Positions 2,846 to 62,576 of a DNA stretch of 64,000 nt are shown one piece after another. Numbering within the stretch: the first letter of the stretch is position 1; every line of letters starts with the position of its first letter. A program made the translations under genes and the position numbers. The notes under the pieces were generated by a model, which worked only from the letters and a program-made list of their open reading frames with translations, searched no databases and was not told where the DNA came from. Source of the stretch: Stomorhina lunata (lineage: Eukaryota; Arthropoda; Insecta; Diptera; Rhiniidae); the NCBI GenBank assembly GCA_933228675.1, contig OW121740.1, forward strand, positions 35,136,292 to 35,200,291, written 5' to 3'.

Positions 2846-3169
2846 GCTCTTCGGTTCGGAATAATTAGGAATTGGAATCTTCTATTAGGAATTGGAACCT
2901 TTTGATGGTTAAATTCTGATCAAAATAGTTTGATAATTTTTTAATTTTCATAACTTCAAAATTTTGTGGAGTGTCCACATATAATAAAAAATTATGATTC
3001 ACTTTTTGAATGTGGATATTTCTAAGATATTTTTTAAACGATTTTTTTTTAACTTCCTCAGAACATCAAGCATAAAGTCCACATGAAAAATTTGTGTAAA
3101 TATATTCTTGGAGCTCAAGGGACTTAAGTACTCATTTACCACTTGTGCTTCAATCGAACCAGGTATTTT
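2846..3169. other. AT-rich spacer
   Basis: Contains a short local duplication (TTAGGAATTGGAA twice, near 2865-2900) but no gene or element was recognised. Confidence 0.4.
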
Positions 3170-3972
3170 TATACCCTTCACCACCATAGGTGGAAAGGGT
3201 ATTATAAGTTTGTGCTGATGTATGTAACGCATAGAAATATTTGTCTTAGACCCACCTTTTAGTTTACCAATAGGCTTAGAATCACTTTCTGAGTCGATTT
3301 AGCGATGGCCGTCCGTCCGTCCGCCCGTCCGTCTGGCTGGACGGCTGACTGGCTGGACCCCCATGTAAACCTTGTAATCAAACTACAGGTCGCAATTCTA
3401 AAGATAATTTAATGAAATTTGGCACAGATCATTTTTTTGATACCATGGCTATTGAAATGGGACCATGGCTATTGAAATTGGTCAAAATCGGTCCATTATT
3501 TATGGTACCTCCCATAGGTCCCACTTTCCGGAATTGATATATTGGCCACAAATATCAATATTTGTTCATGAAATTTTAAACAAATACTGCTTATGTAAAC
3601 TAAATACCACATTTGACCATAGCTCCCATACAAACTCTTCTTTAAAAACGCACTAAATGAGACAAAAAATGACTAAAACGCTTGTAAATCTAAAGATAAT
3701 CAAAATTTTGAGTTTATTTTTTGCATACATAATTGTTGTAACAACTGTAATCAATATGCCAAATTTATATATAATAATCGGTCCACATTTGACCCTAGCA
3801 CTCATATAAGTCCAAATGACGAAAACAGCTTAAATATACAAGTTTTGAGAAAATGTTTGTATGATGGCAAAATTTAGCAAATATTTGTCTTTATACAGGA
3901 AAAATAACACCTTTGACCTTAGTGGTGAAGGGTATAGTATGGTCGGGCTTGACAGACGCTTTATTACTTGTT
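3170..3972 (-). repeat. A-family dispersed repeat, copy 3
   Basis: A minus-orientation copy of ~800 bp, from TATACCCTTCACCACCATAG to TTATTACTTGTT. It carries a small local duplication, GACCATGGCTATTGAAAT twice near 3440-3478, and the CCGTCCGTCCGTC tetranucleotide run. Open frames inside are not conserved between copies. Confidence 0.85.
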
Positions 3973-7089: not shown

Positions 7090-7327
7090 TAACAAAGTAT
7101 AACAAAATAAATAATGTTTAAATAAATATAGAATTGAAATTTTTTATTAAGATCTGAATAAACAGATGATAACATGCAGAAATGTAGATGGAGTTCAGAA
7201 ATGCCTAAAGGGTCCTATTTTATACTCAGTATTATTTATATTGAATACTAATAAAGTGATTAAAAGAAGATTATATGCCAGTTTGAAGTAGACGACTTAT
7301 CAATAATATTTGCATATGCATATATTT

Positions 7328-8126
7328 ATACCCTTCACCACCATAGGTGGAAAGGGTATTATAAGTTTGTGCTGATGTTTGTAACGCATAGAAATATTTG
7401 TCTTAGACCCACCTTTTAGTATACCAATAGACTTAGAATCACTTTCTGAGTCGATTTAGCGATGTCCGTCCGTCCGTCCGTCTGGCTGGCTGGACCCCCA
7501 TGTAAACCTTGTAATCAAACTACAGGTCGCAATTCTAAAGATAATTTGATGAAATTTGGCACAGATAATTTTTTTGATAATGGGACCATGGCTATTGAAA
7601 TTGGTCAAAATCGGTCCATTATTTATGGTACCTCCCATAGGACCCACTTCCCGGAATTGCTATATTGGCCACAAATATCAATATTTTTTTGATGAAATTT
7701 AAAACAAATACTGCTTATGTAAACTTAAATCACTGTACCAAATTTCGTTGAAATCGGTCCACATTTGACCATAGCTCCCATACAAACTCTTCTTCAAAAA
7801 CGAACTAAATGAGACAAAAAATCACCAAAACGCTCGTAAATCTAAAGATAATGAAAATTTTGAGTTTATTTTTTGCATACATAATTTTTGTAACAACTGT
7901 AATCAATTTGCCAAATTTCGAGATAATCGGTCCACATTTGACCCTAGCTCTCATATAAGTCCAAATGACGGAAACAGGTTGAATATATACGTTTTGAGAA
8001 AATGTTTGTATGATGGCAAAATTTAGCAAATATTTGTCTTTATACAAGAAAAATAACACCTTTGACCTTAGTGGTGAAGGGTATCGTATGGTCGGCTTGA
8101 CCGACTATAGCGCTTTCTTACTTGTT
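7328..8126 (-). repeat. A-family dispersed repeat, copy 5
   Basis: A full-length minus-orientation copy (~800 bp), from TATACCCTTCACCACCATAG to GCGCTTTCTTACTTGTT. Near identical to copy 1 in reverse, so both are comparatively young. Confidence 0.85.
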
Positions 8127-9585
8127 TTTTTTTTTTCAATTTCTATGCGAGTAAATTTAATGATTATAATGCAAATTTATACTAAATAGAAATTAAACAA
8201 ATCGATTTTTAAATTCCTTGTTTTCTGAAAGCTATTTCAAAATATTGTGTGTATTTTTTAATTTGCGTTTTTTTTTTTCAAAATTAAAAAAAACAAAGCT
8301 TGAGACATCGAAACAAATGCTGAACGCCTAATTGATTAATTTTCAAAATGATTATTTATCACTTAATTAGAATTCAATATAAAAACAATTTAATTTTAAA
8401 ACTATCAAAAATGTTTGTTTTTCAATGAACATGACATTCAAAAGTGCAATAAATAAGCAATTAAAGTTTGTTTGAAATAACACTTTAACTTGGAATAACA
8501 ATTTAGCTTGAAATAACACTTTAACACTATCAAAACGAATATGTTTGGAGACAATTCAATAAATTTCAAAACACCCACATTTTGAATTTTTAAAAAATAT
8601 TAAATCCATTATAGGAAATATATAAATCATAATTTAAAAAATATGTTAGATAATTAAGATTTTCAATAAAAAAATTCACCTTTTAGTTTGTTTCAGAAAT
8701 GTTTACACAATTTTGAAATTTGAGTATTTTTTTCAAATATTTTTTAAAGTATTTTTTAATTATTTAGTAATTTTTGTTAAATTCATAAATGCTTTTAAAA
8801 ATGTTATATTTTTTAATAATTTTTTTTTTCAAAACACTTTTCAAATTACTTTTTTTTTTGTTCGTTTTACCGAAAACCTTAAACCGTTTTAGTTTTACCG
8901 TTATCCGTTAAGTTTTCAGATACTCGCACACGTTCCGCATTCAATTCTCGACTGATCGAGTTCATTATGGCAAAACGTTTTGTATCGCAAAAGCTGTTTG
9001 CGCGCTAGGTTGATCTTTATTGTTGTTGCTATTGTATTTGTTAAACTTTTTATACTAGATATTTAACAAATTCTTGTTGTTGTTGCTATTTAGTTGTTTT
9101 TGCCATTATTTTTTATAGTATTTTTAATTCTCGTTGAGGTTTTTGTTATTTTTATTTAAATAAAACAATTTTATATTAGAGTATCTCTAAGATCTTTTTC
9201 TATTTGATTCCATTCAATTTGTATCTTTGAGTACTAAATTCTCAACGACGTAAGATCTGTTATAATTATTACCTAGTTTACATTTAAGAAGATACTTCTA
9301 TTCTCAGCTTTTGTTATCGCCAAGTTTTGTTCTCTTTATGAATTTGTTTTATCTAGTTTCCTACAAATCTCTATAAAATAGATTTTGAAATCTGTCATCA
9401 TCTTCATTAGATGACATGTGAGATTTTGTAATTTTGATATACTTTATACACAAACTAATTTAAAAATAATTAAGGTAATCATTAGAAATGCACAATGGGT
9501 CGAAATATTTAAAAATTAAATCAGTCAGTTTGTGGCATTACTGGCTGATTCATCATCGGCCAGCCTAAACACCAAAGCAAAGACT
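8127..9585. other. Long AT-rich non-coding stretch
   Basis: About 1.45 kb with poly-T runs and no supported exon. The only signal is a possible minus-strand initiator near 8957, listed separately. Confidence 0.45.
8908..8965 (-). promoter_or_regulatory. Possible minus-strand initiator
   Basis: Read on the minus strand the segment contains GATCAGTCGAGAATTGAATG followed by CGGAACGTGTGCGAGTATC. ATCAGTC fits the fly initiator (TCAGTY). The downstream GGAACGTG block is only loosely like an MTE/DPE and is not at the exact DPE spacing. An A-rich leader-like stretch follows. No downstream coding exon was found, so this is weak. Confidence 0.22.
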
Positions 9586-11829: not shown

Positions 11830-12480
11830 AAGAATATTTTGATTTCTTTGGTAATGAAAATGGGTAAAATCGGTTTACAATTGACCATAGCATCCATATA
11901 AACAACTTACGGAAACGGCAAAACTGCCAAAAAGAATAAGGGGTTTCTGTCTGTCTATCCATTAGTTAAAAGCATGATAGCGCCTAAACTAAAAGAGTTA
12001 CATACATACATATATACATAATTCCCACGATATTCCAATTGTAAAAAGGGGTACTTCTTTCAGACAATGAGCTGCACCCGATCCTACTTTGAGACTCATT
12101 AAAAGGGACCTACTTTTTAATATCAGCTCAGAATGGCGAATGCATTAGTTAGAGAAGTTTTAAATAGACGAATACTCAATAACCAGTGACAAGCTGAGTT
12201 ATGAGGTGAACCGCTTTTTTTTGAAAATATATTTTTAAGTAGGTCTGACCAGGAATCGAACTTGGGACCTCTTGTATGTTAGGCGGATGATTAACTTGCT
12301 ATGCCACGGCGGTTCTAACGAAAAGAGCTAGAGCAACAAAATTTTACAACAGTATTTGTTTTGAAAAAGTTTGGTGTTGAAATTAGGCCAAATCGGTTCA
12401 CATTTGATTATAGATAACATATAACCCCTACCCGGCAATCACTTAAAAACTTATAAATTAAATCAAATTTTAATAAATAT
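11830..12480. repeat. E-type dispersed repeat, interrupted by a SINE
   Basis: Contains modules (ATTGACCATAGCATCCATAT, AATCGGTTCACATTTGATTA) like those of the A family but without its terminal hairpin. A similar repeat lies in intron 2 of the SERF gene (28440-29415). The copy is split at 11991-12330 by the second SINE. Non-coding. Confidence 0.5.
12001..12320 (-). mobile_element. tRNA-derived SINE, copy 2
   Basis: The same SINE as at 6198 but on the minus strand. The tRNA-like head is at the right end (GGATTGAAC-type box B seen here as ATCGAACTTGGGACC, and box A region GCTATGCCACGGCGG). The tail at the left is (TA/CA)-rich. It is flanked by AAAAGAGTTA (11991-12000) and AAAAGAGCTA (12321-12330), a 10-bp target duplication with one mismatch. 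It is more diverged than copy 1. Confidence 0.85.
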
Positions 12481-12511
12481 GACAACTTAATTTAGAGCAA
12501 AGAAGTTGGTC

Positions 12512-14880
12512 AAAATTTCCTATAAAAATAGGAAATTTTGAAAATTTCCTATAAAAATAGGAAATTTTGAAAATTTCCTATAAAAATATGAAATTTTGAA
12601 AATTTCCTATAAAAATATGAAATTTTGAAAATTTCCTATAAAAATAGGAAATTTTGAAAATTTCCTATAAAAATAGGAAATTTTGAAAATTTCCTATAAA
12701 AATAGGAAATTTTAAAAATTTCCTATAAAAATAGGAAATTTTGAAAATTTCCTATAAAAATAGGAAATTTTAAAAATTTCCTATAAAAATAGGAAATTTT
12801 GAAAATTTCCTATAAAAATAGGAAATTTTGAAAATTTCCTATGAAAATAGGAAATTTTGAAAATTTCCTATAAAAATAGGAAATTTTGAAAATTTCCTAT
12901 AAAAATAGGAAATTTTGAAAATTTCCTATAAAAATAGGAAATTTTGAAAATTTCCTATAAAAATAGGAAATTTTGAAAATTTCCTATAAAAATAGGAAAT
13001 TTTGAAAATTTCCTATAAAAATAGGAAATTTTGAAAATTTCCTATAAAAATAGGAAATTTTGAAAATTTCCTATAAAAATAGGAAATTTTGAAAATTTCC
13101 TATAAAAATAGGAAATTTTGAAAATTTCCTATAAAAATAGGAAATTTTGAAAATTTCCTATAAAAATAGGAAATTTTGAAAATTTCCTATAAAAATAGGA
13201 AATTTTGAAAATTTCCTATAAAAATAGGAAATTTTGAAAATTTCCTATAAAAATAGGAAATTTTGAAAATTTCCTATAAAAATAGGAAATTTTGAAAATT
13301 TCCTATAAAAATAGGAAATTTTGAAAATTTCCTATAAAAATAGGAAATTTTGAAAATTTCCTATAAAAATAGGAAATTTTGAAAATTTCCTATAAAAATA
13401 GGAAATTTTGAAAATTTCCTATAAAAATAGGAAATTTTGAAAATTTCCTATAAAAATAGGAAATTTTGAAAATTTCCTATAAAAATAGGAAATTTTGAAA
13501 ATTTCCTATAAAAATAGGAAATTTTGAAAATTTCCTATAAAAATAGGAAATTTTGAAAATTTCCTATAAAAATAGGAAATTTTGAAAATTTCCTATAAAA
13601 ATAGGAAATTTTGAAAATTTCCTATAAAAATAGGAAATTTTGAAAATTTCCTATAAAAATAGGAAATTTTGAAAATTTCCTATAAAAATAGGAAATTTTG
13701 AAAATTTCCTATAAAAATAGGAAATTTTGAAAATTTCCTATAAAAATAGGAAATTTTGAAAATTTCCTATAAAAATAAGAAATTTTGAAAATTTCCTATA
13801 AAAATAGGAAATTTTGAAAATTTCCTATAAAAATAGGAAATTTTGAAAATTTCCTATAAAAATAGGAAATTTTGAAAATTTCCTATAAAAATAGGAAATT
13901 TTGAAAATTTTCTCTGAAAATAGGAAATTTTGAAAATTTCCTATAAAAATAGGAAATTTTGAAAATTTCCTATAAAAATAGGAAATTTTGAAAATTTCCT
14001 ATAAAAATAGGAAATTTTGAAAATTTCCTATAAAAATAGGAAATTTTGAAAATTTCCTATAAAAATAGGAAATTTTGAAAATTTCCTATAAAAATAGGAA
14101 ATTTTGAAAATTTCCTATAAAAATAGGAAATTTTGAAAATTTCCTATAAAAATAGGAAATTTTGAAAATTTCCTATAAAAATAGGAAATTTTGAAAATTT
14201 CCTATAAAAATAGGAAATTTTGAAAATTTCCTATAAAAATAGGAAATTTTGAAAATTTCCTATAAAAATAGGAAATTTTGAAAATTTCCTATAAAAATAG
14301 GAAATTTTGAAAATTTCCTATAAAAATAGGAAATTTTGAAAATTTCCTATAAAAGTAGGAAATTTTGAAAATTTCCTATAAAAATAGGAAATTTTGAAAA
14401 TTTCCTATAAAAATAGGAAATTTTGAAAATTTCCTATAAAAATAGGAAATTTTGAAAATTTCCTATAAAAATAGGAAATTTTGAAAATTTCCTATAAAAA
14501 TAGGAAATTTTGAAAATTTCCTATAAAAATAGGAAATTTTGAAAATTTCCTATAAAAATAGGAAATTTTGAAAATTTCCTATAAAAATAGGAAATTTTGA
14601 AAATTTCCTATAAAAATAGGAAATTTTGAAAATTTCCTATAAAAATAGGAAATTTTGAAAATTTCCTATAAAAATAGGAAATTTTGAAAATTTCCTATAA
14701 AAATAGGAAATTTTGAAAATTTCCTATAAAAATAGGAAATTTTGAAAATTTCCTATAAAAATAGGAAATTTTGAAAATTTCCTTTAAAAATAGGAAATTT
14801 TTAAAATTTCCTTTAAAAATAGGAATTTTTGGAAATTTTCCTATAAAATTAAGAAAAATTTTTAAATTTCCTATAAAACT
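12512..14880. repeat. 29-bp hairpin satellite array (about 82 units)
   Basis: Tandem array of a 29-bp monomer over ~2.37 kb. Each monomer is a perfect inverted repeat: a 12-nt arm AAAATTTCCTAT, a 4-nt loop AAAA, the complementary arm ATAGGAAATTTT, and a single G spacer. The middle is almost invariant (rare changes, e.g. near 13776, 13908 and 14354). Units at the right edge from about 14780 are degenerate, as expected of unequal exchange. It is unlike a simple microsatellite because the dyad is preserved in every unit. Confidence 0.95.
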
Positions 14881-16639
14881 AGCATTTACATATAAAAAAT
14901 ATTACTATAGATTCATTAGCGTCTCGTGAAATAGAATTCATTGCTCATTTCAAAATGACGTAACAATAAATTTTTTGCTTATTATTTCAGTTTTTTTTTT
15001 CTTTTAATATTATTCTCATTGAATAGAATTCTTAAGATTTTTGTTTAATTCAACTTGAAATTAAAATGAATAAAAATTTAACATAAAAACGTGAATAAAA
15101 GAGAAATTTGATATCATGTTTGGAATTAATTTTTTTTGGCGATTACTTATGGGATATGAGTAAAAGTTGAGAATAATAATGATTTTGTCATCAAGTTATT
15201 TGTTGTTTAATGATGACTAAAACTTGGGCATTGTTTTAAATCTTTTGATGATGACAGGTGGAAATTTGAGAAACCGTTCTTAGGCACCCAAATAAAATTT
15301 TGAAAAGAGTGTAATCACAATTTTTTTGAAAGAAAAATACAAATTTTGAACCTTACCAACTTCGATCATAAAACTACAGGACATACGCCTAAATATGAGC
15401 CTAGTCTGATAAAAATCTTATAACGATATTAAAAGTTATAGGCATATAAAATGGGTATGTTTTGAAAGAAATCATAAAAAAATATATTTTTGGACCGTCG
15501 TAAAATCCGAAAAAAAGCTAAATTTAAAATTTTTAAGAACTGTAAAAAATTGTTTGGGCTAGGAGATTGTATATAAAAAATTTCATCGAAATCGGAGATG
15601 GTGTGGCTCAGGAAGAGCTTGAAATTTTTTTTATTTAACTCTAAAATAAAAAATGTTTTTATGTAAAATTCAAAAATTGTTAAGAACTTTTTGTACTAAC
15701 TATTCTCTGTCACACTGTCTAACTGTTTTCAAATATTATCTAAACTTAAACATTTTAAATCATGTAAGTTCACAAACAATATCTTTTGGATAAATATTAA
15801 AACTATGCAAATATATGCAGTTGTTTCCAGTTGTCTCCTTTTTGCAATTTTCCCCCAAAAAATAAAAATATATTTTACTTAATCTTAGTAACCCTTAACC
15901 TTGCCACAAAATCCTTAACGAAAAAAATAATATGTACAAAACAAATATTCATTGTTTAACAAAAATATCTACAATGGCCATATCTTGATGCCAAGTCTAA
16001 AAAGCCAACATAAATGGAGACACAAGTTTTTGAAAAAAGAAGCCTAAAACTAAAATGTTTTTCCAGCTCAAAGACACATTTTTCTCTAGTACTTGCGGCT
16101 TTTGCTGAATAACTAAGAAATATCAAATACGAGTACAATAAGTTTATTCAACGACTATGATTTAAATTCAAAATACAACGTTTAAATATGATTTTAACAA
16201 TAGCGGATAACTGGTACAAGATTGCATATAGTTTTTCACAGATTTGATTGCAAATAGATACTGTAGCATCAACCTTAAGAGTTCAGCATCAAGTGGCATC
16301 TGGGCCCAAAGTTTCTAAATCAACAAATAAACATTTCCACATTGTTTTAAGACAAATTGTTAAATGCGTTTATTTTACTATACCCTACACTATTATAAAT
16401 GTCACTATCACATGCGTTTGTGCAGGCGAGACACATTGTTCAAAAAAATGGAACTGGCTTAAAGTTTGTCGATCAGCCCGAATGTACTTAGGATGCTTTA
16501 AGATTATGAGGAGATTAGGAGGAGTAAAGAGGACCTGAGCAATGAATTAAAACCTAAAACAGAAGGAGAATAGTTCGTTTCACGTCTTGCTTCCTGGACT
16601 CTGAGTTGGTCTTACGTCTTGTTTCCTGGGATCTGAAGG
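14881..16639. other. AT-rich non-coding stretch
   Basis: About 1.75 kb. It includes a module near 15580 (AAATTTCATCGAAATCGG) that resembles phrases in the A/E repeats, so part may be another old dispersed repeat. No intact gene was recognised; short open frames show no family resemblance. Confidence 0.4.
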
Positions 16640-26933: not shown

Positions 26934-29863
26934 TTATTTTACTTTGGCCGCCCCTTGTTGCTTTGCAGCAGCTTCCTCCTCTTTCTTTCGTTGTTTTTCA
27001 CGCATCAAATCGGCATCTCTGAAAAATAATGTTGTAAATTTGTTTGTTAGAATTTCTTGTGATGGAGTAAAACGTTATAATCATAGTTCTGTGATTGAGT
27101 TGGTAAAGACTATAGTTACATTACTTATTTACTCGTTTACTAGGCAAAGTACTCTTGATTATGAATACCTTTATTATATTTTTCATCATTGTCTACTTAG
27201 TCTAACCTTTTTTTTTTAATTTTTTCCCCTTCCAAAAATTACTTTTTTCTTGGCCAAATGCGATCGTTTTCCTTAAATTCCTCAATGAATAGACCCGAGA
27301 AACCCACTTTCACTACTGTTTTGTCTGCCGTTATTTGTGATCAACGTTTTTTTCACGCTTACAAAACGGGGCAAAAACTCTTTCATATTGCGGTCGAACG
27401 ACGCCAATCATTCCCCCAAAATTGCGCGTGTAGTCGACTGTAAGCAAACGTGGCACTCATCTTGTGAAAAACTTTCTTACAAACAAATGATCATTCATGT
27501 GAGATGCTTTCCACTATTTCTCCTACTTTTAATCTCCAATCGACAAAAACTATATCATATTTTTTTCAATTATTTTGGATGTATAATCTCAAATGGGAGT
27601 CCAGAATGTTTGACTTTTGTTTTCTGTAAATATCAGACTAAACATAAAGATTAATCATCACAATTTCTAAAATTGTAAATATTTTATCTTTTACAATAAC
27701 ATCAAGATAATACCAATCGGAAATTGTTGTAGCTTTAGTTAAGGCAATACTTCAGAATAAGATTGCAGTGTTTTTAGTTTTAACATAATCATACAACTAC
27801 ATCTTAAAAAGTAAATCACTCAATTGGTATGACTTACAGGAAATATGTACTAGTAGTTAATGACACAGAAGTGAAATATTCGAAGCTGCTAAAACGCAGC
27901 CACATGTTGCCTTCAAATTATCTTACTAAATTATCTTTATAAGAGTGAAGCAAAAGGGGACAAGAATCAATCAATCAGAACCATTGCTTGGTATCCAACA
28001 TTCCCATAAGAAACGGGGTAAAGATAGAATAACAAGAGAAGTGAGTAATGATTAAATAATTAGGAATGACCTATCTAAGCCATCTGAATCCAATTATAAA
28101 ATCTGCAAGATCGTTCAGTTTGCACTGCTGCAGATCCTGAGGTTCATCATGTATATAACCCTACACATCTGAGCCTCTGATTTTGGAGCATTGGTCAGTG
28201 GCAGAGAATATGTTTCACCAATTCGGACGAGTCCTCATCTAGAGATAGTCAGCAGAAGTTCGGAATGCTACCATCCCAACATTTTAGCCTAGAATTTAAG
28301 GCACATTGTCCTTCACACATCTTTTAAACTTATGATCAAGTAAGAGTGTTATATTCGCCTGGTTTTTATATAAAGCATATTCTTGCAAATTTAGTGGCCA
28401 TAGCTGTCATAGTTTCTAATTTAATAGCTTTTAACTGGCCTTTGCTACATTTTTTTTTTTTTTTTTTGGTTACCGGGAATGTTTTTTGTATGAAAGCTGT
28501 GGTCAAATATGAATCGATTCCTATAAAATTTGAATAGTTGCATAAAACTTTTCTATTCTAAATTTAGTCGTCATAGCTATTACATTTGTATTGAATTTAT
28601 CAGCATTAATGTGTTTCCCGGGCGGGGTTATATGGGAGCTCTAACTAAATGTAAACCAATTTCGCTCATTTTCAGTACGCAACTTCTATAACATATTAAA
28701 AATACTTAAGTAAAATTGTCTCTCTAGCTCTTTTAATTAAGAAGCTAACGAGCTTTTATCTGACGGACATAAACCCCCTTTTCTTTTTGTATTTTTGTGT
28801 TTCCGTAAGTTTTTTGTATGCGAGCTATGGTAAAATGGTGAACGATTGTGACAAAATTTTGCACACTGTCTGGCATTGACATAAGACTTCCTTGTGCTAA
28901 GTTTATTGGTTATATCTGTTATAGTTTTAGATTTATTGACATTTCAGTGTATTTTAGGTGAAATTTAGGCTGTTTTCATAAATGCTTTGTATGGGAGCTA
29001 TGGCGAAATGTCAACCGATTTTGATGAAATTTTATATGCTGCATAGGGCTTATGTAAAACTTCTATACACCAAATTTTATCATCATAGCTATCATAGTTT
29101 GCTATTTGTTAGCAAATAAACGATAAGAATAAGCGAGGTTATACGGGAGCTATGGTAAAATGTTGCCCTATTTCAATACCAAAATTCTCTTAGAAATTAA
29201 GAATGTTTCTACTAAGTTTCAGTGAGCCGGCAGCTTTCGTTAAGTCGTTATCGTGATTTCAACAGACAGACAGACGGACATCGCTTAATCGTCTTAGAAT
29301 TTCACAAGGATTCAGAATACATATCGCTTTTGGTGTTTGAGCCTATATTAAGAAAATTACAAACTGAATGACAATCTCAATATACTCCTCATTCTTTTCG
29401 ATGGTGGGTATAAAAATGGCCTATTTTGGAATGTCACCTGTTAAGTTGCCTTAAATAAATTGTATAGCATTATAAAAAATATATTAATACCTTTGTTTAC
29501 GTTGATCGACGGTTAAATTGTCAGTACGTTTGCCTTTGCTTTGTTCAGCTAGTTTTTTGGCGTTCTTTTGACGGGCTAAATCACGTTGGTTTCCACCTAA
29601 GAGACGTTAAATAAAAACAGAATATTTTAATTAAAATTTGTCAATATTTTAAAATAAATTCTTCAATAGCTCTAAAAGCTATTTTACAAAAATAATACTA
29701 TGCATTTTTTATAAAGTACCAAACAACTGATAAGATCATTAAACATTTATTAAACAAATTAATTGCAATCGCATACAACAAAAACAATTTCTTTTTTACA
29801 TTTCCTCATCTAACGAAATACTTTCTATTCAATTTCATTCATATTTCGCTACTTACGGGTCAT
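26934..29863 (-). CDS. SERF-family protein (small EDRK-rich factor), 3 exons
   Basis: Assembled by hand on the minus strand: exon 1 29863-29857 (only ATGACCC), intron with GTAAG donor, exon 2 29596-29491, a 2.47-kb intron, exon 3 27018-26934 with TAA stop. Phases join exactly to 198 nt (65 residues). The protein starts [17 protein letters not shown], the hallmark of SERF proteins, has a Lys/Glu-rich middle ([17 protein letters not shown]) and a charged tail ([16 protein letters not shown]) ending AAKVK. Length and order match fly and human SERF (about 60 residues). Family members are small, charged, nucleic-acid-binding proteins that modify amyloid aggregation (worm MOAG-4). Intron 2 carries LINE and E-repeat debris. 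AATAAA signals lie just past the stop. Confidence 0.93.
27845..28260 (+). repeat. LINE 3' region relic inside SERF intron 2
   Basis: Aligns loosely with the 24170-24330 part of the Jockey-like LINE: AATATTCGAAGCTGCTAAAA versus AATATTCAATGCTGCCAAAA, then CTTCAAATTATCTTACTAAA versus CTACAAATTACCTCACCACA. Many stops; inactive. It lies antisense to SERF in its large intron. Confidence 0.55.
28440..29415 (+). repeat. E-type dispersed repeat inside SERF intron 2
   Basis: Four or five consecutive modules of the kind TATGGGAGCTATGGCGAAAT + ...CGATTT..., then a CAGACAGACAGACGGACATCG run and CTTAATCGTCTTAGAATTTC, ending GATGGTGGGTATAAA. The plan mirrors the A family (modules, GGAC-like run, 'TCGnCTnAGAAT' block, terminal GTGG.GGGTAT) but the sequence is a distinct family. 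Non-coding. Confidence 0.65.
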
Positions 29864-38671: not shown

Positions 38672-40817
38672 TTAGTACTCGGGTTTTGCAAAATTATCGA
38701 CTTTTTTCGGAAACCCTCCCATTAAAGATTTTACAGTTGCTTCTGATACCTTTTTGGAGCATGTGTTCCACCTGCGCTTAAAATCGGACATGTTCTTGGA
38801 AATCTTTCCTGTGTTCTTCAATTCCTTTTTTACCAGAGCCCAATACCTTTCTACAGGCCGAAGTTCTGGACAGTTAGGTGGATTTGCCTCTCATGGTACA
38901 AAAATTACATTATTCTTTGAGTACCACTCAAGTGCCTTTTTTCCATAATGGCATGATGCCAAATCGGGCCAAAAAAATGTAGTCACTCTGTGCTCTCTTA
39001 AAAAGGGTAACAACCGTTTTTGTAGGCACTCCTTTATATAAATTTCTGTGTTTATTGTGCCAGATGCTACAAATACTTTACTTCTTTTGCCACGACTGCA
39101 AATAGCTTGCCACACGAGAAACTTCTTAGGGAATTTTGTTTGTTTTTTTGTGAGAAACTCTTGCCGAACATTGCCCCGTTTATCAGCAACATAAAAATCT
39201 TGACCAGGAAGTTGAGAAAAGTCTGCCAGTACTAGGGTGTTCATTTTACTCGACTTTTAATTGTTTGAGTAATCAAATAACTTGAAAATGGGATTTTTGA
39301 ATTACCCGGAAAATCGATTAATCGTCAAAAATTACTCGAGTTAATCGAGTAAAATATTCGTTTTAAAATTACTCGAGTAAAATTTTTTCACAAGCTGTTT
39401 TTAATAAAATTATAGTGTTTTATTAACAAAAAATTTAACAATTCACAATAGAATAAAATAAAATGAAAATTCAAATTTTATTTTTAATAAAAAATAATAT
39501 TTGTACCATATATTTGAAACATATCGTCACCCTTAATATTTAAAGTGAGTTAATTTACTTCTATATATGTATTCATGTTTACACTGATTGTCTAAAGCAA
39601 TCTTTTGATTTGATAAATCCTGATTTTAATCTAATAGATTAATAGAATCTACTACCTTTTATCTATCTTCACAATGAGATCTTCAACAGGACTATAGTAC
39701 AATCTACGATTAATTGAGCTATAGTGGGACGTACTATTACTATTGGTCCTACTATAGTAATAGTACGTACGATTACATAAGAATCTTCAACTAAGCTATA
39801 GAAGTACCTACGAATACATTGGAAACATACATTGGATCTACGATTATTGAATCTACGATTATTGAAAATGCAATGGACTATATTACAACTCTCGATTATT
39901 GCCTAGAATTGACATTTTTATTCCATAAAATGGAAAATGGACTATATTAAAACCCTCGATTATTATTAAAAATAAACCATACTATAGAATTATTGATTAA
40001 AATGGACCCTTCAATGGTAGACAATTGATTTATGTGGTCTACAATAAAAACCCTTATTATTGCATAAAATGAAATAAATCATTAGTAATGATGTAAAAAA
40101 TTATGGACAGCTGATAATTTCGAACCAACGTTGGCCATTATTTGGGTGGCAGGGGAACTTTAGGAGTTTTATTTTATTAATATTAAAAAACAATGCTAGC
40201 AAAATGAATAAAATGTTTTCACTCGAGTAACTCGATTACTCGCGGAAAATTACTCAAATAAATCTTTATTTGAAATTAGTAATTTTTATTTACTCGAGCG
40301 ATTAATCGATTTTATTTTTCCGATTAATCGAGCAAACATAACTCGAGTAAACACCCTAGCCAGTACGTATGTTTCATCATCCATCACACAACAGGTGTAT
40401 TTTTTTTATAAAATCAGACTTCAATTTTTTCGCTCGTTTTTTTGCTTCTAAGTTCTTTATAGCATTGCGATCTGGAACCTTTTGGACTTTGTATGTCTTC
40501 AGTCCAGCATAAGCTTTGACTCTATGTGCAAAATTCGTAGAACATTTCACCGTAAGAGCTGCTTTTCTTAAAGAAGTGTTAAACGCTCTTCGAAAGAGTC
40601 GCTCGACTTCTTTTGCCTTACCAATATCTGTAGGACCTTTTTTCCTCCCTGATCCAGGTGTTCTTTCAATGCTCAGGTTTTCCTTATACCGTCTGATGGC
40701 ATTAGAAACCGTTCGAGGGTCAACTTTCAAATTTTTAGCTATTTTTTTAAAAGTCCATGACGGATTTTTTTGAAGAGTTTTAATTATATTTTCACGAACT
40801 TTTTTTTCGCAGTCCAT
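38672..40817 (-). pseudogene. DD37E Tc1/mariner transposase, broken
   Basis: Starts MDCEKKVRENIIKTLQKN (40817), with helix-turn-helix KKIAKNLKVDPRTVSNAIRR and a basic linker. The first catalytic Asp is in CVMDDETYV (~40375). The coding then meets a hAT-like insertion and resumes LADFSQLPGQDFYV (39224). The second Asp is in FFWPDLASCHY. The end block is NPPNCPELRPVERYWALVKK, whose VE Glu lies 37 residues after that Asp, hence DD37E (as in ITmD37E elements). Lesions: a 1-nt shift at a T8 run (~40395), the 1.13-kb insertion, and an in-frame TGA (38890-38892) just before NPPN, possibly from CGA. Stop at 38672. Confidence 0.9.
39233..40358. mobile_element. hAT-like MITE, 1126 bp, perfect 8-bp target duplication
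   Basis: Ends TAGGGTGTTCATTTTACTCG and CTCGAGTAAACACCCTA are inverted (first 9 bp identical). It is flanked by GCCAGTAC on both sides (39225-39232 and 40359-40366), the 8-bp duplication typical of hAT. ACTCGAGTAA-type motifs cluster near both ends, as subterminal transposase sites would. An internal perfect palindrome (15-bp arms, 39729-39743 and 39754-39768) is present. There is no transposase, so it is non-autonomous. It disrupts the DD37E transposase. Confidence 0.92.
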
Positions 40818-41961
40818 TTTGATTGAAATAACTATTGAAAATTAATAATTTCTAAAATAATAGTATCTGACATATCTATAGAAACTAACTTGATCAAAAA
40901 ATAAATTATTTCTTGCACTATGGATAAATTTTGTCTAAAATAGTAAATGCATATTTTTTTTAGAACACTCTTTAAGAAAAATATTAGTTAGCGCTTTTCT
41001 ATATTAAAGTAACGATATATTTATTTAAAGTTTTACACATTTTACATTAAATGTTACGCCCCAAGAATGCTGGTGCTAGATGTTAAAGTGCCCCAAAAAT
41101 CAAAAAAAAAATATATATTTTTTAAAAAGCATCAAATTTGCCCCACTGTATTTTTTTTTTAGCACCTAATACCTTAAATTTAATCTATGGATATAGATAG
41201 TGTTATTGCTTTATGAATAAGACAGACATGTGTTCGTAAATTTTGTATTAAATAAATATTATTTTGTAAAAAATATATACTGTGACGGACGCTACACACT
41301 TTCCTGTACATATTATTCTGTAAAATGCTATATAAACATCTATATATTTTTGGCCTAATGTAAAGCATGCTATAAGTTCTCTTTACAAACCAAGTTCAAT
41401 TGGAGAAAAAAGAAAAATTGCACTAGTCAAATTAAAGAAGACATTTATTTCTGTGACGGACGCAACACACAGTGGGCCCTTTTTTTACTTGAAGTTATTT
41501 ATATCACTCTAATTTCCTTTGATGGGGTCTTTTACATCTAATTGTATAAAATTAAGCAGACTTTGAGCCCCTACTGAAACTTGATACCTAAATGTATGTT
41601 ATTGCGAATTTTTATGAACTTTAAAAAAAAACCTATTATTTTAAAAAATTTATAAAAATTCGAGATGGGCGCAAATAAAGACCTGCCATTCACGAAGAGA
41701 GCAATCGAAAATTGTATTCATTTTATATTCTAAAGTATCAATATATGGAAAATTTTTCCATAAACACAAATATGTGATTTTAACAGTTTTCAAATTTTGT
41801 CCTTAGTTTAATGCTTTTCGGATTTGCCCATATTTCAGAAACAAAAATATAGTACGTTGTACTGGACTTAGCAGTTTTTCTTCGAAACATTTTCTATTAA
41901 TGGATTAAGCAGTTTTTCTTATCGAACCTTTTCACACACTTCAAGACCAAAATTAAAGAAA

Positions 41962-42761: not shown

Positions 42762-43037
42762 AATTACATCCTGGTCGACGGAGCCTATCTTTCTCTACCA
42801 TTTGTCATAAAAATCTCAAATTTCTTAAAAAGTGGACTTAGCTGGTTGTCATATTTAGCCGACGATATCTTAAGCTATCCTTAAATGTATAATGAAAACC
42901 ACAGGCGAGTTACAATTATTTTTATGAATACATTTTTATTAGTACAGTTTAATAGCACAAATTAATACAATATTTTAAATAAACGGATTTGCAAACATTC
43001 ATAAACATACATGAGTTTGTTAATGAACTCATATTTA

Positions 43038-43582: not shown

Positions 43583-46135
43583 TGAAGAAAAAAATTTTTC
43601 AAAAATTTCTTATTTTTATAGGAAATTTTTCAAAAATTTTTTATTTTTATAAGAAAATTTTCAAAAATTTCTTATTTTTATAACAAATTTTTCAAAAAAT
43701 TTCTTATTTTTATAGGAAATTTTTCAAAAATTTCTTATTTTTATAGGAAATTTTCCAAAAATTTCTTATTTTTATAGGAAATTTTTCAAAAATTTCTTAT
43801 TTTATAGGAAATTTTTCAAAAAATTTCTTATTTTTATAGGAAATTTTTCAAAAATTTCTTATTTTTATAAGAAATTTTCCAAAAATTTCTTATTTTTATA
43901 GGAAATTTTTCAAAAATTTCTTATTTTATAGGAAATTTTTCAAAAATTTCTTATTTTTACAGGAAATTTTTAAAAAATTTCTTATTTTTATAGGAAATTT
44001 TTCAAAAATTTCTTATTTTAATAGGAAATTTTTTATTTTAATAGGAAATTTTTTTAAAAATTTCTTATTTTTTTAGAAAATTTTTCAAAAATTTCTTAAT
44101 TTTTATAGGAAATTTTTCAAAAATTTCTTATTTTTATAGGAAATTTTTTAAAAATTTCTTAATTTTTATAGGAAATTTTTCTAAAATTTCTTATTTTTAT
44201 AGAAAATTTTAAAAAAATTTTTTATTTTTATAGGAAATTTTTCAAAAATTCCTTTTTTTATAGGAAATTGTTTTTTAATTTCTCATTTTTATAGGAAATT
44301 TTCAAAAATTTCTTATTTTTATAAAAAAATTTTCAAAAATGTCTTTTTTTAAAATTTCTTATTTTTATAAGAAATTTTTCAAAATTTTCTTATTTTATAA
44401 GAAAGTTTTCAAAAATTTCTTATTTTTATAGGAAATTTTTAAAAAATTTCTTATTTTTAAAGGAAATTTTCTAAAAATTTCTTTTTTTTAAAGGAAATTT
44501 TCTAAAAATTTCTTATTTTAATAGAAAAATTTTTAAAAATTTGTATTTTTATTTGAAATTTTTCAAAAATTTCTTATGTTTATAGGAAATTTTTTAAAAA
44601 TTTCTTATTTTTATAGGAAGTTTTTCAAAAATTTCTTATTTTTATAGGAAATTTTTCAAAAATTTCTTATTTTTATAGGAAATTTTTCAAAAATTTCTTA
44701 TTTTTATAGGAAATTTTTCAAAAATTTCTTATTTTTATAGGAAATTTTTCAAAAACTTCTTATTTTTATAGGAAATTTTTCAAAAATTTCTTATTTTTAT
44801 AGGAAATTTTTCAAAAATTTCTTATTTTTATAGGAAATTTTTCAAAAATTTCTTATTTTTATAGGAAATTTTTCAAAAATTTCTTATTTTTATAGGAAAT
44901 TTTTCAAAAATTTCTTATTTTTATAGGAAATTTTTCAAAAATTTCTTATTTTTATAGGAAATTTTTCAAAAATTTCTTATTTTTATAGGAAATTTTTCAA
45001 AAATTTCTTATTTTTATAGGAAATTTTTTAAAAATTTCTTAATTTTTATAGGAAATTTTTCTAAAATTTCTTATTTTTATAGGAAATTTTTCAAAAATTT
45101 CTTATTGTTATAGGAAATTTTTCAAAAATTTCTTATTTTTATAGGAAATTTTTCAAAAATTTCTTATTTTTATAGGAAATTTTTTAAAAATTTCTTATTT
45201 TTATAGGAAAATTTTCAAAAATTTCTTTCTTTATAGGAAATTTTTCAAAAATTTCCTATTTTTATAGGAAATTTTTCAAAAATTTCTTATTTTTATAGGA
45301 AATTTTTCAAAAATTTCTTATTTTTATAGGAAATTTTTCAAAAATTTCCTATTTTTATAGGAAATTTTTCAAAAATTTCTTATTTTTATAGGAAATTTTT
45401 CAAAAATTTCTTATTTTTATAGGAAATTTTTCAAAAATTTCTTATTTTTATAGAAAATAATTAAAAATTACTTATTTTTATAGAAAATTTTTCAAAAATT
45501 TCTTATTTTTATAGGAAATTTTTCAAAAATTTCTTATTTTTATAGGAAATTTTTCAAAAATTTCTTATTTTTATAGGAAATTTTTCAAAAATTTCTTATT
45601 TTTATAGGAAATTTTTCAAAAATTTCTTATTTTTATAGGAAATTTTTCAAAAATTTCTTATTTTTATAGAAAATTTTTCAAAAATTTCTTATTTTTATAG
45701 GAAATTTTTCAAAAATTTCTTATTTTTATAGGAAATTTTTCAAAAATTTCTTTTTTTATAGAAAACAATTAAAAATTACTTATTTTTATAGAAAATTTTT
45801 CAAAAATTTCTTATTTTTATAGGAAATTTTTCAAAAATTTCTTATTTTTATAGGAAATTTTTCAAAAATTTCTTATTTTTATAGGAAATTTTTCAAAAAT
45901 TTCTTATTTTTACAGGAAATTTTTCAAAAATTTCTTATTTTTATAGGAAATTTTTCAAAAATTTCTTATTTTTATAGGAAATTTTTCAAAAATTTCTTAT
46001 TTTTATAGGAAATTTTTCAAAAATTTCTTATTTTTATAGGAAATTTTTCAAAAATTTCTTATTCTTATAGGAAATTTTTCAAAAATTTCTTATTCTTATA
46101 GGAAATTTTTCAAAAATTTCTTATTTTTGTAAGAA
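43583..46135. repeat. 31-bp hairpin satellite array (about 82 units)
   Basis: Tandem array, ~2.55 kb. The monomer is a 13-nt arm AAAAATTTCTTAT, a TTTT loop, the arm ATAGGAAATTTTT, and a single C spacer. The arms pair except at one position (C/T change, a G:T-type wobble). Its reverse complement has an AAAA loop and a G spacer, i.e. the same design as the 29-bp array at 12.5 kb with each arm one base longer. The left third (to ~44640) is degenerate; the right part is homogeneous. It lies between ATP synthase epsilon and the protease homolog. Confidence 0.95.
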
Positions 46136-46532
46136 ATATTTTATAGACTCTTTGCTATGATTTTTCCTTAGTGGTAGTCTATTTATTAAAATTTCTTCTA
46201 TTTGCGTGCCACTGTTTGCCCACTTAGTTTAAGTACTTCAAATTACATTCATTGACCAATTATCTGGTGCAGTTTTTTTGTTCGTGTGTCAACAATACCT
46301 ACGTTTTAAAGTATTTGAAATAACCATTTCTATATATAGTTAGAAAATTCTCTAACGTTAGTAGCAATTACCATAAAACATTTGAGATTGGTAACATATT
46401 TTTCAGTGATTTCGGGTCAACTAAACTGTGAATGTGTTTCGCAAAAAATAATTTAAATAAAAAAAGCTGACAAAATAAAAAAGGATTATATAGAAAAGGA
46501 TATTACCATTAAATTGGTATACAAAAAAAAGT

Positions 46533-55269: not shown

Positions 55270-55601
55270 TTCTTTATTTTAATTTTATAATAAATAGTTT
55301 TCTTTATATTGAGTAAAAGATAGTCAGAGAATGAATAAATGTTATTTTATATGTAAAATAAAGTATAAATTTAAATATTAATTAAATCAATTCATTAAAC
55401 AGACAACCTTTTCTTGTATTTATTGAAATAAATCATATTATAATATAATTAACAGGTGTATTCTTCTTTATGGGTTTAGGGCAGATAGGCAGCCTATGCC
55501 GCCAGGAGCCGAAGACTTTTTGTTATATTTGTAAATATCACGATTATATAATAAACTCTCGAAAATGAGCACCCAAAACATTCAATTGAGAATTGGACGT
55601 C

Positions 55602-57065
55602 AAAAATTTTCTATAGAAAAAATTTCGATAGAAATATTTTTCTATAGAAAAAATTTCGATAGAAATATTTTTCTATAGAAAAAATTTCGATAGAAATATT
55701 TTTCTATAGAAAAAATTTCGATAGAAATATTTTTCTATAGAAAAAATTTCGATAGAAATATTTTTCTATAGAAAAAATTTCGATAGAAATATTTTTCTAT
55801 AGAAAAAATTTCGATAGAAATATTTTTCTATAGAAAAAATTTCGATAGAAATATTTTTCTATAGAAAAAATTTCGATAGAAATATTTTTCTATAGAAAAA
55901 ATTTCGATAGAAATATTTTTCTATAGAAAAAATTTCGATAGAAATATTTTTCTATAGAAAAAATTTCGATAGAAATATTTTTCTATAGAAAAAATTTCGA
56001 TAGAAATATTTTTCTATAGAAAAAATTTCGATAGAAATATTTTTCTATAGAAAAAATTTCGATAGAAATATTTTTCTATAGAAAAAATTTCGATAGAAAT
56101 ATTTTTCTATAGAAAAAATTTCGATAGAAATATTTTTCTATAGAAAAAATTTCGATAGAAATATTTTTCTATAGAAAAAATTTCGATAGAAATATTTTTC
56201 TATAGAAAAAATTTCGATAGAAATATTTTTCTATAGAAAAAATTTCGATAGAAATATTTTTCTATAGAAAAAATTTCGATAGAAATATTTTTCTATAGAA
56301 AAAATTTCGATAGAAATATTTTTCTATAGAAAAAATTTCGATAGAAATATTTTTCTATAGAAAAAATTTCGATAGAAATATTTTTCTATAGAAAAAATTT
56401 CGATAGAAATATTTTTCTATAGAAAAAATTTCGATAGAAATATTTTTCTATAGAAAAAATTTCGATAGAAATATTTTTCTATAGAAAAAATTTGGATAGA
56501 AATATTTTTCTATAGAAAAAATTTCGGTAGAAATATTTTTCTATAGAAAAAATTTCGATAGAAATATTTTTCTATAGAAAAAATTTCGATAGAAATATTT
56601 TTCTATAGAAAAAATTTCGATAGAAATATTTTTCTATAGAAAAAATTTTGATAGAAATATTTTTCTATAGAAAAAATTTCGATAGAAATATTTTTCTATA
56701 GAAAAAATTTCGATAGAAATATTTTTCTATAGAAAAAATTTCGATAGAAATATTTTTCTATAGAAAAAATTTCGATAGAAATATTTTTCTATAGAAAAAA
56801 TTTCGATAGAAATATTTTTCTATAGAAAAAATTTCGATAGAAATATTTTTCTATAGAAAAAATGTCGATAGAAATATTTTTCTATAGAATAATTTTCGTT
56901 AGAAATATTTTTGTATAGAAACAATTTCGATAGAAATATTTTTCTATAGAATAATTTTCATTAGAAATATTTTTGTATATAAAAATTTTCGTTAGAAATA
57001 TTTTTCTATAGAAAAAATTTCGTTAGATATATTTTTCTATAGAAAAATTTTCAAAAGAAATATCA
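55602..57065. repeat. 31-bp satellite with 16-bp palindrome (about 47 units)
   Basis: The monomer is AAAAAATTTCGATAG + AAATATTTTTCTATAG. Each unit boundary forms a perfect 16-bp palindrome, TTTTTCTATAGAAAAA, and GATAGAAA also faces TTTCTATA within the unit. The array is nearly invariant from 55610 to ~56860 and degenerates only at its right edge (56870-57065), with CGATAG changed to CGTTAG. It lies 0.5 kb after the protease homolog. Confidence 0.95.
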
Positions 57066-58485: not shown

Positions 58486-61400
58486 ATTGTTGATAAAAAA
58501 AATTTTTGATAAAAAAAACTTCCATAGAAAAGTTTTTGATAAAAAAATTTTCTATAAAAAAATTTTTGATAAAAAAATTTTCTATAGAAAAGTTTTTGAT
58601 AAAAAAATTTTCTATAGAAAAGTTTTTGATAAAAAAATTTTCTATAGAAAAGTTTTTGATAAAAAAATTTTCTATAGAAAAGTTTTTGATAAAAAATTTT
58701 TTTGATAAAAAAATTTTGTATAGAAATGTTATTGATAAAAATATATTCTATAGAAAAATTTTCTATAGAAAAGCTTTTGATAAAAAAATATTTGCTAAAA
58801 AATTTTCTATAGAAAAATTTTTGATAAAATAATTTTCTATAGAAAAGTTATAAAAATATAAATAAATAAAAAAGATAAAAAGAAATTCTATAAAAAAGTT
58901 TTTGATAAAAAAAATTTCTTTAGAAAAGATTTTGATTAAAAAAAATTTCTAAAGAGAAGTTTTTGATAAATTCTATAGAAAAGTTTTTGATAAAAAAAAT
59001 TATCAATATAAAAGTTTTTAATAAAAAAATTTTCTATACAAAATTTTTTGATAAAATAATTTCTATAGAAAAGTTTTTGATAAAAAAAATTTCTAAATAA
59101 AAGTTTTTAATAAATAAAATTTCTGCAAAAAAATTTTTGATAAAAAATTTTTTTTAGAAAAGTTGTTGATAAAAAAAATTTCGATAGAAAAGATTTTGAT
59201 AAAAAATTGTCTATAGAAAAATTGTTGATAAAAAAATTTTCTATAGAAAAATTTTTGATAAAAATTTTCCATAAAAAAGTTTTTGATATAAAAATTTACC
59301 ATAGAAAAGTTTTTGATAAAAAAAATGTATATAGAAAAGTTGTTGATAAAAAAATTCTGTGGATAAGTTTTTGATAAACAAATTTGTATAGAAAAATTTT
59401 TCACAACAAAATGTTCTACAGAAAACTTTTCGATAAAAAAAATTGTCTACAGAAAAGTTTTTGATAAAAAATTGTCTATATAAAATTTTTGCTAAAAAAT
59501 TTTATATGGAAATTTTTTTTATCAAAAAAAAAATCAATAGAAAACTTTTTGACAAAATAATTTTCTTTAGAAAAGTTTTTGATTAAAAAAAATTTTCTAT
59601 AGAGAAGTTTTTGATAAAAAAAATGTCTATCGAAAAGTTTTTGATAAAAAGAAATTCTATAGAAAAGTTTTTGATAAAAAATATTCTTTAGAAAAGTTTT
59701 TGATTAAAAAAATTTTTTATAGAGAAGTTTTTAATAAAAAAAATTTATATAGAAAAGTTTTTGATAAAAAAAATTTTCAATAAAAAAGTTTTTAATAAAC
59801 AAATTTTTCTTTTCGATAGAAAAGATTTTGAGAAAAAATTGTCTACAGAAAATTGTTATTCTATGGAAAATTTTTTTATCAAAAAATTGTCTATAGAAAA
59901 ATTTTTAATAAAAACAATTTTCTATGGAAAAACTTTTGATAAAAAATTTTTTATGGAAAAATTTTTGATAAACAAATTTTCTATAGAAAAGTTTTTGATA
60001 AAAAAATTTCGATAGAAAGTTTAAAAAAAAATTCCTATGGAAAATTTTTTTGATAAAAAAATTTTCTCTAGAAAAATTTTTTTATCTATAGAAAATTCAA
60101 ATTTTTTTTAATCAAAAACTTTTTTAAAGAAAATTTTTTTTATCAAAAACTTTTCCATAGAATTTCTTTTTATCAAAAACTCTTCGATGGAAAATTATTT
60201 TATCAAAAATTTTCTATGGAAAATTTTTTTATCAAAAAAAATTCAATAGAAAAGTTTTTGATAAATAAATTTTCTATAGAAAAGTTTTTGCTAAAAAAAA
60301 ATTTCTTTAGAAAAGTTTTTGATTAAAAAAAAATTTCTATAGAGAAGTTTTTAATAAAAAAATTTTCTATAGAAAAGTTTTTGATAAAAAAATTTTCAAT
60401 GGAAAAGTTTTTAATAAACAAATTTTCTTTTCGATAGAAAAGATTTTGATAAAAAATTGTCTACAGAAGATTGTTATTCTATGGAAAATTTTTGTATCAA
60501 AAAATTGTCTATAGAAAAATTTTTAATAAAAACAATTTTCTATGGAAAAACTTTTGATAAAAAATTTTTTATGGAAAAATGTTTGATAAACAAATTTTCT
60601 ATAGAAAAGTTTTTGATAAAAAAATTTCGATAGAAAGTTTAAAAAAAAAATTCCTATGGAAAATTTTTTTGATAAAAAATTTTCTATAGGAAAGTTTTTG
60701 ATAAAAAAATTGTCTTTAGAAAAATTTTTGATAAAATTTTCTATGAAAAAATTTTTGATAAAAAAATTTTCTATAGAAAAATTTTTTTATCTATAGAAAA
60801 TTCAAATTTTTTTTTAATCAAAAACTTTTCTAAAGAAAATTTTTTTTATCAAAAACTTTTCCATAGAATTACTTTTTATCAAAAACTTTTCGATGGAAAA
60901 TTATTTTATCAAAAATTTTCTATGGAAAATTTTTTTGTCAAAAAAAAATTCAATAGAAAAGTTTTTGATAAATAAATTTTCTATAGAAAAGTTTTTGCTA
61001 AAAAAAAATTTCTTTAGAAAAGTTTTTGATTAAAAAAAAATTTCTATAGAGAAGTTTTTAATAAAAAAATTTTCTATAGAAAAGTTTTTGATAAAAAAAT
61101 TTTCAATGGAAAAGTTTTTAATAAACAAATTTTCTTTTCGATAGAAAAGATTTTGATAAAAAATTGTCTACAGGAGATTGTTATTCTATGGAAAATTTTT
61201 TTTATCAAAAAATTGTCTATAGAAAAATTTTTAATAAAAAAAAATTTTCTATGGAAAAACTTTTGATAAAAAACTTTTTATGGAAAAATTTTTGATAAAC
61301 AAATTTTCTATAGAAAAGTTTTTGATAAAAAAATTTCGATAGAAAGCTTAAAAAAATTCCTATGGAAAATTTTTATGATAAAAAATTTTCTATAGAAAAG

Positions 61401-62576
61401 TTTTTGATAAAAAAAATTGTCTATAGAAAAATTTTTGATAAAATTTTCTATGAAAAAATTTTTGATAAAAAAATATTCTCTAGAAAAATTTTTTTTATCA
61501 AAAAAGTTTCTATAGACAAGTTTTTGACAAAAAAATTTTCTATGGAAAAGTTTTTGATAAAAAAATTTTCTATAGAAAAGTTTTTGATGAAAAAAAATTT
61601 CTATAGAAAAGTTTTTGATAAAAAAATTTTCTATAAAAAAGTTTTTGATAAAAAAATTTTCTATAGAAAAGTTTTTGATAAAAAAATTTCTATAGAAAAG
61701 TTTTTGATAAAAAAAATTTCTATACAAAAGTTTTTGATAAAAAAATTTTCTATAGAAAAGTTTTTGATAAAAAATTTCTATAGTAAAGTTTTTGATAAAA
61801 AAGTTGTTTATAAAAAAATTTTCGATAGAAAAGATTTTGATAAAAAATTGTCTACAGAAAAATTGTTGTCCTATGGAAAATTTTTTTATCAAAAAATTGT
61901 CTATAGAAAAATTTTTAATAAAAAAAAATTTTCTATGGAAAAATTTTTGATAAACAAATTTTCTATAGAAAAGTTTTTGATAAAAAAATTTCGATAAAAA
62001 AGTTTTAGCTAAAAAAATTTCTACAGAAATGTTTTTTTATAAATAATTTTCTATATAAAAGTTTAAAAAAAAAAAATCCTATAGAAAAGTTTTTGATAAA
62101 AAAATTTTCTATAGAAAAATTTTTGATAAAATTTTCTATGAAAAAATTTTTTACAAAATTTTCTATGAAACAATTTTTTATAAAATTTTCTATGAAACAA
62201 TTTTTTATAAAATTTTCTATGAAACAAATTTTTGATAAAAAATTTTCTCTAGAAAAGTTTTTGATAAAAAAATTTTCTAAAAAAAGTTTTCGATAAAAAA
62301 ATTTTCTATAGAAAAGTTTTTGATAAAAAAATTTTCTATAGAAAAGTTTTTGATAAAAAATATTTCTAAAGAAAAGTTGTTGATACAAAATATTTCTATA
62401 GAAAAGTTGTTGATAAAATAATTTTCTATTTAAAATTTTTTGTGAAAAAAAGCTTTTCTATAATAAAATTTTTGATCAGACCATTTTCTATAGAAAGGGC
62501 TTTGATAAAAAAATTTTTATAAATAAAAAAATTTCTATAGAAAAGTTTTTGATAAAAAAATTTTCTTTAGAAAGGT
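58486..62576. repeat. 30-bp satellite array with palindromic core, ~4.1 kb
   Basis: The monomer is AAAAGTTTTTGATAA + AAAAATTTTCTATAG (30 bp). Unit junctions carry the 14-bp palindrome TTTTCTATAGAAAA. It is much more heterogeneous than the other arrays, and some units are inverted (ATCAAAAACTTTTC at ~60110-60190 and ~60820-60890). Higher-order repeats of ~0.62-0.71 kb are marked by CGATAGAAAAGATTTTGA near 59814, 60432, 61139 and 61823. Because 30 is a multiple of three, spurious long open frames rich in F, K, I and Y appear on both strands; they are not genes. Confidence 0.93.

Follow-up and report, generated by a model that had tools for sequence, protein, structure and literature searches.

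Baculovirus homologous regions are built of tandem palindromes of about 30 bp and act as viral origins and enhancers. The dyad array described here resembles them, by analogy only, in its tandem palindromes of about 30 bp; its dyad pattern gave no exact match in viral contigs, a search from which near records may have been left out. For Tribolium castaneum, the published account describes a euchromatic satellite whose tandem, AT-rich and homogenised arrays lie among genes and transposons (PMC5844308), all features shared by the present arrays; the latter differ in that a unit of about 30 bp is mostly filled by a dyad, and in that they take up about a fifth of the sampled letters. Short inverted repeats packed in tandem DNA are likewise a feature of dyad-rich centromeric satellites, and D. 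melanogaster dyads were reported to be enriched only at the Y centromere (PMC9070824), whereas the present arrays occur in 10 of 16 loci over two large contigs and not in one block. Tetris of Drosophila virilis provides a case of foldback TIR repeats that have grown into satellite arrays (PMC4079207). Its TIR-220 repeats are element-linked, tandem and satellite-like, and three of the present arrays have a common flanking element; however, a TIR-220 unit measures about 220 bp and is located within foldback TIRs, and here no TIRs or fold-back structure were found.

The window, by which is meant the whole stretch of 64,000 nucleotides of Stomorhina lunata DNA that was analysed, covers positions 35,136,292-35,200,291 of contig C1 (186.7 Mb) in an assembly of 728 Mb and 104 contigs. 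The array under study (A1) and its edges lie as follows:

12321..12496, no strand assigned: left flank of A1, formed by an older dispersed repeat that also occurs elsewhere
12512..14882, plus strand: A1, the 29-bp dyad array (Tandem Repeats Finder [TRF], register cut, dyad pattern and fold)
14774..14889, plus strand: right edge of A1, the last four registers, progressively more changed (register cut)

The earlier note on this DNA had described a 29-bp satellite of perfect hairpins with about 82 dyads, nearly all intact, and this description was borne out. TRF returned a period of 29 with 81.7 copies, 98% matches, 0% indels and the consensus AAAATTTCCTATAAAAATAGGAAATTTTG; when the array was cut in register from 12512, 70 of the 82 registers were exact 29-mers and the full 12+4+12 dyad was kept in 73 units. 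The start of the array was likewise found at 12512, while its end, which had been placed at 14880, was two bases short of the 14882 given by TRF. Among the non-exact registers, eight carry one to three changes, two near the right end carry two, and the last two, starting at 14832 and 14861, are degraded. The pattern AAAATTTCCTATNNNNATAGGAAATTTT matched the window 75 times, with 73 matches in A1 and two in an array at 43592-46142, and had no match across 100 shuffles. Folded as single-stranded DNA, the monomer forms 12 pairs around a 4-nt loop, with an energy of -9.2 kcal/mol where shuffles average -1.77 (z -6.35). Of 2000 dinucleotide shuffles, 0.15% attained its dyad score, and of 2000 mononucleotide shuffles none did. 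Because the arms occupy 24 of the 29 bases, the single G forms a second centre of dyad symmetry in each unit; a three-unit DNA fold employs both centres, and 'one hairpin per monomer' is therefore a choice of frame.

Besides A1, the window holds three further dyad arrays of 30-31 bp:

43592..46142, minus strand: A2, a 31-bp array of the A1 family with one mismatched pair in its consensus (TRF)
55607..57063, no strand assigned: A3, a 31-bp array of the CTATAG family (TRF; dyad p=0.053; clustering)
58498..62521, no strand assigned: A4, a 30-bp array of the CTATAG family (TRF; dyad p=0.013)

The genome was sampled at 16 loci of 10 kb, spaced roughly evenly on two large contigs, together with the two flanks of the window (stretches are given L numbers below). 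Arrays of at least 150 bp with periods of 28-33 made up 23.3% of 155,000 unmasked letters and were present in 10 of the 16 loci (bootstrap interval of the mean array share over 16 loci, 13-36%); the share is about 20%, by our own arithmetic, without two non-dyad arrays in L016. Over the 23 arrays of the window, L001 and L003-L018, the dyad score exceeded the shuffle mean in 21 and did so at p below 0.05 in 14, and the two with p=1 are both 30-bp arrays in L016. The Fisher value over these 23 arrays, 8e-15, is inflated by the relatedness of the arrays. Their units form five clusters, with eight arrays in the A1 family and 11 in the CTATAG family, and the unit of the superfamily is AT-rich, about 28-33 bp in length, with arms of the type AAAAATTT(C/T)CTAT / ATAG(G/A)AAATTTTT. 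Seven of nine arrays with other periods have no dyad, and the two exceptions (L003 3891 and L016 909) contain CTACAG or CTATAG sequence. The dyad belongs to the unit of the family as a whole, and not to A1 alone. Three 5-kb stretches from small contigs were also inspected:

L021: a 31-bp CTATAG-type array and a 12-bp satellite
L020: an (ACAG)n run
L019: no repeat array of 150 bp or more

One array of L003 (6080-8288) has a 31-bp unit with two palindromes in each monomer, one around ATCGAT and one of the CTATAG type. Similar CTATAG repeats occur in other calyptrate flies. Within the open-licence literature, no title or abstract start described such a superfamily, a weak negative as subscription journals lay mostly outside its scope; a search by motif letters gave matches that were unrelated by title, and a protein search with a translated repeat gave no match.

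The verdict on A1 is that of an ordinary member, homogenised not long ago, of a minisatellite superfamily that is dispersed and of unusual abundance. It is probable that A1 represents a strongly homogenised array of this AT-rich superfamily in which turnover, and not a need for pairing, keeps the dyad. Its copies would be overwritten by their neighbours through replication slippage or unequal exchange, and the overwriting would thereby preserve the dyad; more tentatively, part of the CTATAG family seems to reach new places by travelling with a shared flanking element. As is typical of minisatellite and satellite DNA, A1 consists of head-to-tail copies, is locally homogenised with changed copies at its edge, and has related arrays elsewhere (eight of the 23 arrays being of the A1 family). 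Variants shared between A1 monomers lay no more than two units apart in 80% of cases compared to 4% on random placement, although only five distances are involved, and in L008 the corresponding values were 66% and 17% (58 distances); with four older arrays the excess of neighbours was small (23-37% compared to 14-25%). Such sharing between neighbours is the trace expected of local duplication or unequal exchange. Even on this plain reading, a genome in which about a fifth of the sampled letters lie in dyad arrays of about 30 bp, between genes and transposons, has an unusual repeat landscape.

The earlier note had offered selection, structure-dependent exchange and homogenisation as reasons for the retained dyad, with substitutions in one arm matched in the other beyond chance as the distinguishing sign. 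No such matched double change was found among the 80 clean monomers of A1; inclusion of a degraded tail copy brought one (expected 0.02, p=0.022). Intact dyads numbered 73 in the clean monomers compared to 71.4 expected when columns were shuffled among monomers (p=0.045), and the expectation fell to 68.9 with the tail copy (p below 0.001). Among the relatives L008, L009 1956, A2 and L005, matched doubles amounted to 0, 13, 2 and 1 (expected 0.27, 9.14, 0.38 and 1.03; p=1.0, 0.105, 0.057 and 0.646, respectively). Intact dyads stood above the column-shuffle expectation in L008 (85 compared to 72.0) and L005 (5 compared to 2.0), hardly above it in L009 1956 (4 compared to 2.4) and not above it in A2 (2 compared to 3.3). 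Summed over 16 arrays, matched doubles came to 34 against 22.3 expected and unmatched doubles to 75 against 59.6, an excess of both kinds that is read as changes clumping in poor copies. Compensation was rejected for A1, and the small pooled excess of matched doubles is not taken as a sign of it. The test favours homogenisation in A1 because matched changes were lacking, loop and arm changed at similar rates, loop flips were few and variants were shared by neighbours.

Rates of change were considered with the same question in view. The arms vary less than loop and spacer in all seven arrays with a defined loop. Slower change of the arms was nevertheless rejected as an explanation, the A residues of loops and the A/T sites of arms being nearly level and the fast-changing site being the spacer G. 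In five arrays, the rates at loop A and arm A/T sites were 0.0062/0.0049, 0.0422/0.0330, 0.0777/0.0658, 0.0344/0.0208 and 0.1165/0.1206 (ratios of about 1.3, 1.3, 1.2, 1.7 and 1.0), with similar rates in A1. Variants common to at least two monomers were less frequent among those of the arms (112 of 214) than among those of loop or spacer (30 of 42; p=0.027), which the fast spacer G may explain. The commonest changes in the family are C>T (0.072), G>A (0.052) and G>T (0.043), with 0.006-0.023 at A and T sites, and C-G pairs will therefore tend to become T-A in two ordinary steps, with no need for pairing. Arrays fixed at each step were found, with C-G in A1 and L008, C..A in A2 and L005, and T-A in L009 1956. 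The slight excess of intact dyads, the lower sharing of arm variants and the better-than-drift dyads of distant families (see below) speak against a purely neutral reading.

On a different account, a mobile element of the foldback or Helitron type contains the arrays, in its interior or at its ends, and carries them along as it spreads, a process for which Tetris is a precedent (PMC4079207). Its main support is an element of which one piece lies beside A3:

55496..55597, plus strand: piece of the shared flanking element, directly left of A3; the element abuts the arrays of L012 and L017 too

The 400-bp flank of the L012 array matched L017 (74% over 365 columns) and, at the left edge of A3, a shorter piece (80% over 100), and both of these copies directly adjoin a CTATAG-family array and have the same orientation; its sole other match in the sampled letters was a stretch of 41 bp within a short-period repeat of L003. 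A mobile element may thus be what spreads part of the superfamily. However, the observation concerns three of the 11 CTATAG-family arrays, and neither a transposase nor inverted terminal repeats were identified in the few hundred bases of flanking element compared. For A1, A2, L005 and L008, a comparison of flanks with each other showed no element of this kind and gave only matches of about 25-100 bp (some flanks of L009 and L015 lay outside the comparison). The left-flank repeat of A1 has copies at 28557-28734 of the window, L002 5316-5501, L017 7060-7250 and elsewhere. A1 may have been born in place inside this repeat, in which case the right flank would continue it; the score for such a continuation fell short of significance, 2.5% or 8.4% of 1953 other stretches doing as well. 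As a general account of the arrays, carriage by an element is possible but doubtful. Two other dispersed sequences were noted. In L009 (5177-6503), the facing flanks of two arrays are 97-98% identical to L002 5609-6910, which looks like the splitting of one L009 array by a young mobile copy, and a repeat of about 800 bp occurs in the window at 276-1095, 3166-3957, 7325-8127 and 41955-42769 (85-96% identity, both strands), with pieces close to the L012 array and at several further loci.

A bolder account places the structure at the birth of arrays. Foldable units would stall or slip more, and dyads would accordingly be over-represented among arrays that were born and grew, with no upkeep of the monomer. 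The frequency of dyad scores above the shuffle mean and the lack of a dyad in most arrays of other periods agree with this, as does a drift simulation that started from the perfect 31-mer of L008 and, for each unit, introduced random changes equal in number to those by which the two differ. Near relatives, one to three changes off the perfect L008 unit, kept the dyad no better than drift (P 0.08-0.96). Of the units at least eight changes away, 13 of 15 scored 7-12 compared to a simulated mean of 5.4-6.1 (these 13 at P 0.00-0.28; 9 of the 15 at P 0.05 or less), values to be read with the distant units being largely one family and so not independent trials, and with simulated distances that saturate below nominal; the two L016 units had a dyad score of 3 (P 1.0). 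The position of the distant units above drift is the main reason that a structure-linked bias in array birth or growth is retained. Against it, the 23 arrays are themselves related, 11 being of one family, and large arrays without a dyad grow too, namely the 12-bp satellite, a 58-bp array of the window and both of the 30-bp L016 arrays; moreover, a like picture could result from a palindromic seed, for example CTATAG, together with A/T runs. That foldability governs which arrays of units of about 30 bp arise and expand rather than which monomers survive, and that about a fifth of the genome became scattered dyad arrays in this way, is put forward as an unlikely proposal. Were it true, foldable seeds would have been chosen time and again, and distant families would owe to this the dyads that they gained or retained; a preference for foldable units at array birth would make this genome a source of many natural replicates for hairpin-driven minisatellite growth outside disease loci.

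To return to homogenisation in A1, its dyad could instead be upheld by mutation itself, were template switching between the arms (quasipalindrome correction) to keep copying either arm from its partner. The substrates reported for this process (PMC8604942, PMC8794818) are of the same type as perfect arms of 12-13 bp around a 4-nt loop, and hairpins made by template switching share with those of A1 their perfect short stems and small loops. The small pooled excess of matched doubles is in keeping with such a process, as are the units of A1 and L009 1956, each two changes from the L008 unit and both perfect dyads. With yeast, inverted repeats with arms of over 9 bp were reported to undergo spacer inversion from inter-arm template switching (PMC8604942). 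Template-switch hairpins carry parallel arm changes or loop flips (PMC8794818, PMC8604942); by contrast, clean A1 monomers have no matched double, and inverted loops (at least three T, in the family orientation of A loop and G spacer) were found in just 2 of 503 A1-family monomers. A C spacer was present in 15 of 521 A1-family monomers, 11 of the 15 being in one diverged array. Template switching within a strand leaves the orientation of the loop unchanged (PMC8794818), and therefore the rarity of loop flips makes only the inter-arm, spacer-inverting form unlikely. Arrays with one mismatched pair, A2 and L005, have spread to 74-83 monomers, and maintenance of the dyad by template switching is considered improbable.

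The period of about 31 bp might also reflect three helical turns with phased A-tracts, and hence curved DNA. The AA/TT signal at 10.5 bp was above the shuffle mean, at p below 0.05, in four of eight A1-family arrays, including A1 (0.127 compared to 0.065, p=0.030) and L008 (0.201 compared to 0.098, p=0.013). However, 10 of the 11 CTATAG arrays gave p of 0.14 or more, and A4, L017 and L015 9612 fell below the shuffle mean. Phasing as a general cause of the period, which holds for part of the A1 family only, was accordingly rejected, and as an explanation of the arrays it is given little credence. Transcription of the array into successive hairpins as a source of small RNA is very improbable, for although the unit folds well as RNA (-10.9 kcal/mol), no Rfam family reached its gathering score within the window, and AT-rich stems of 12 bp are short for known hairpin RNAs.

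The dyad arrays share the sampled DNA with other sequences. A 12-bp satellite, TAGTCTATGTCT, and a close variant of it have no dyad and make up about 4% of the sampled letters:

L003, 9372-10000: 12-bp satellite
L009, 9472-9964: 12-bp satellite
L011, 642-4442 and 8747-10000: 12-bp satellite
L021, 1-2537: 12-bp satellite

In the window, a non-dyad array of about 58 bp with sub-repeats of 23 and 35 bp (52838-54768) adjoins an exon at 52267-52746 that encodes a trypsin domain (PF00089). This trypsin-like exon had few named protein matches, none of them close, which include phenoloxidase-activating factor 2-like proteins. An ORF with a helix-turn-helix domain (PF13412, PF13384) lies at 40377-40841 of the window, and is presumably a fragment of a mariner-like transposase. 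The closest match of an ORF in L011, which points to a fly related to the calyptrates, was from Lucilia cuprina (74% over 95%), followed by one from Musca domestica (85% over 49%).
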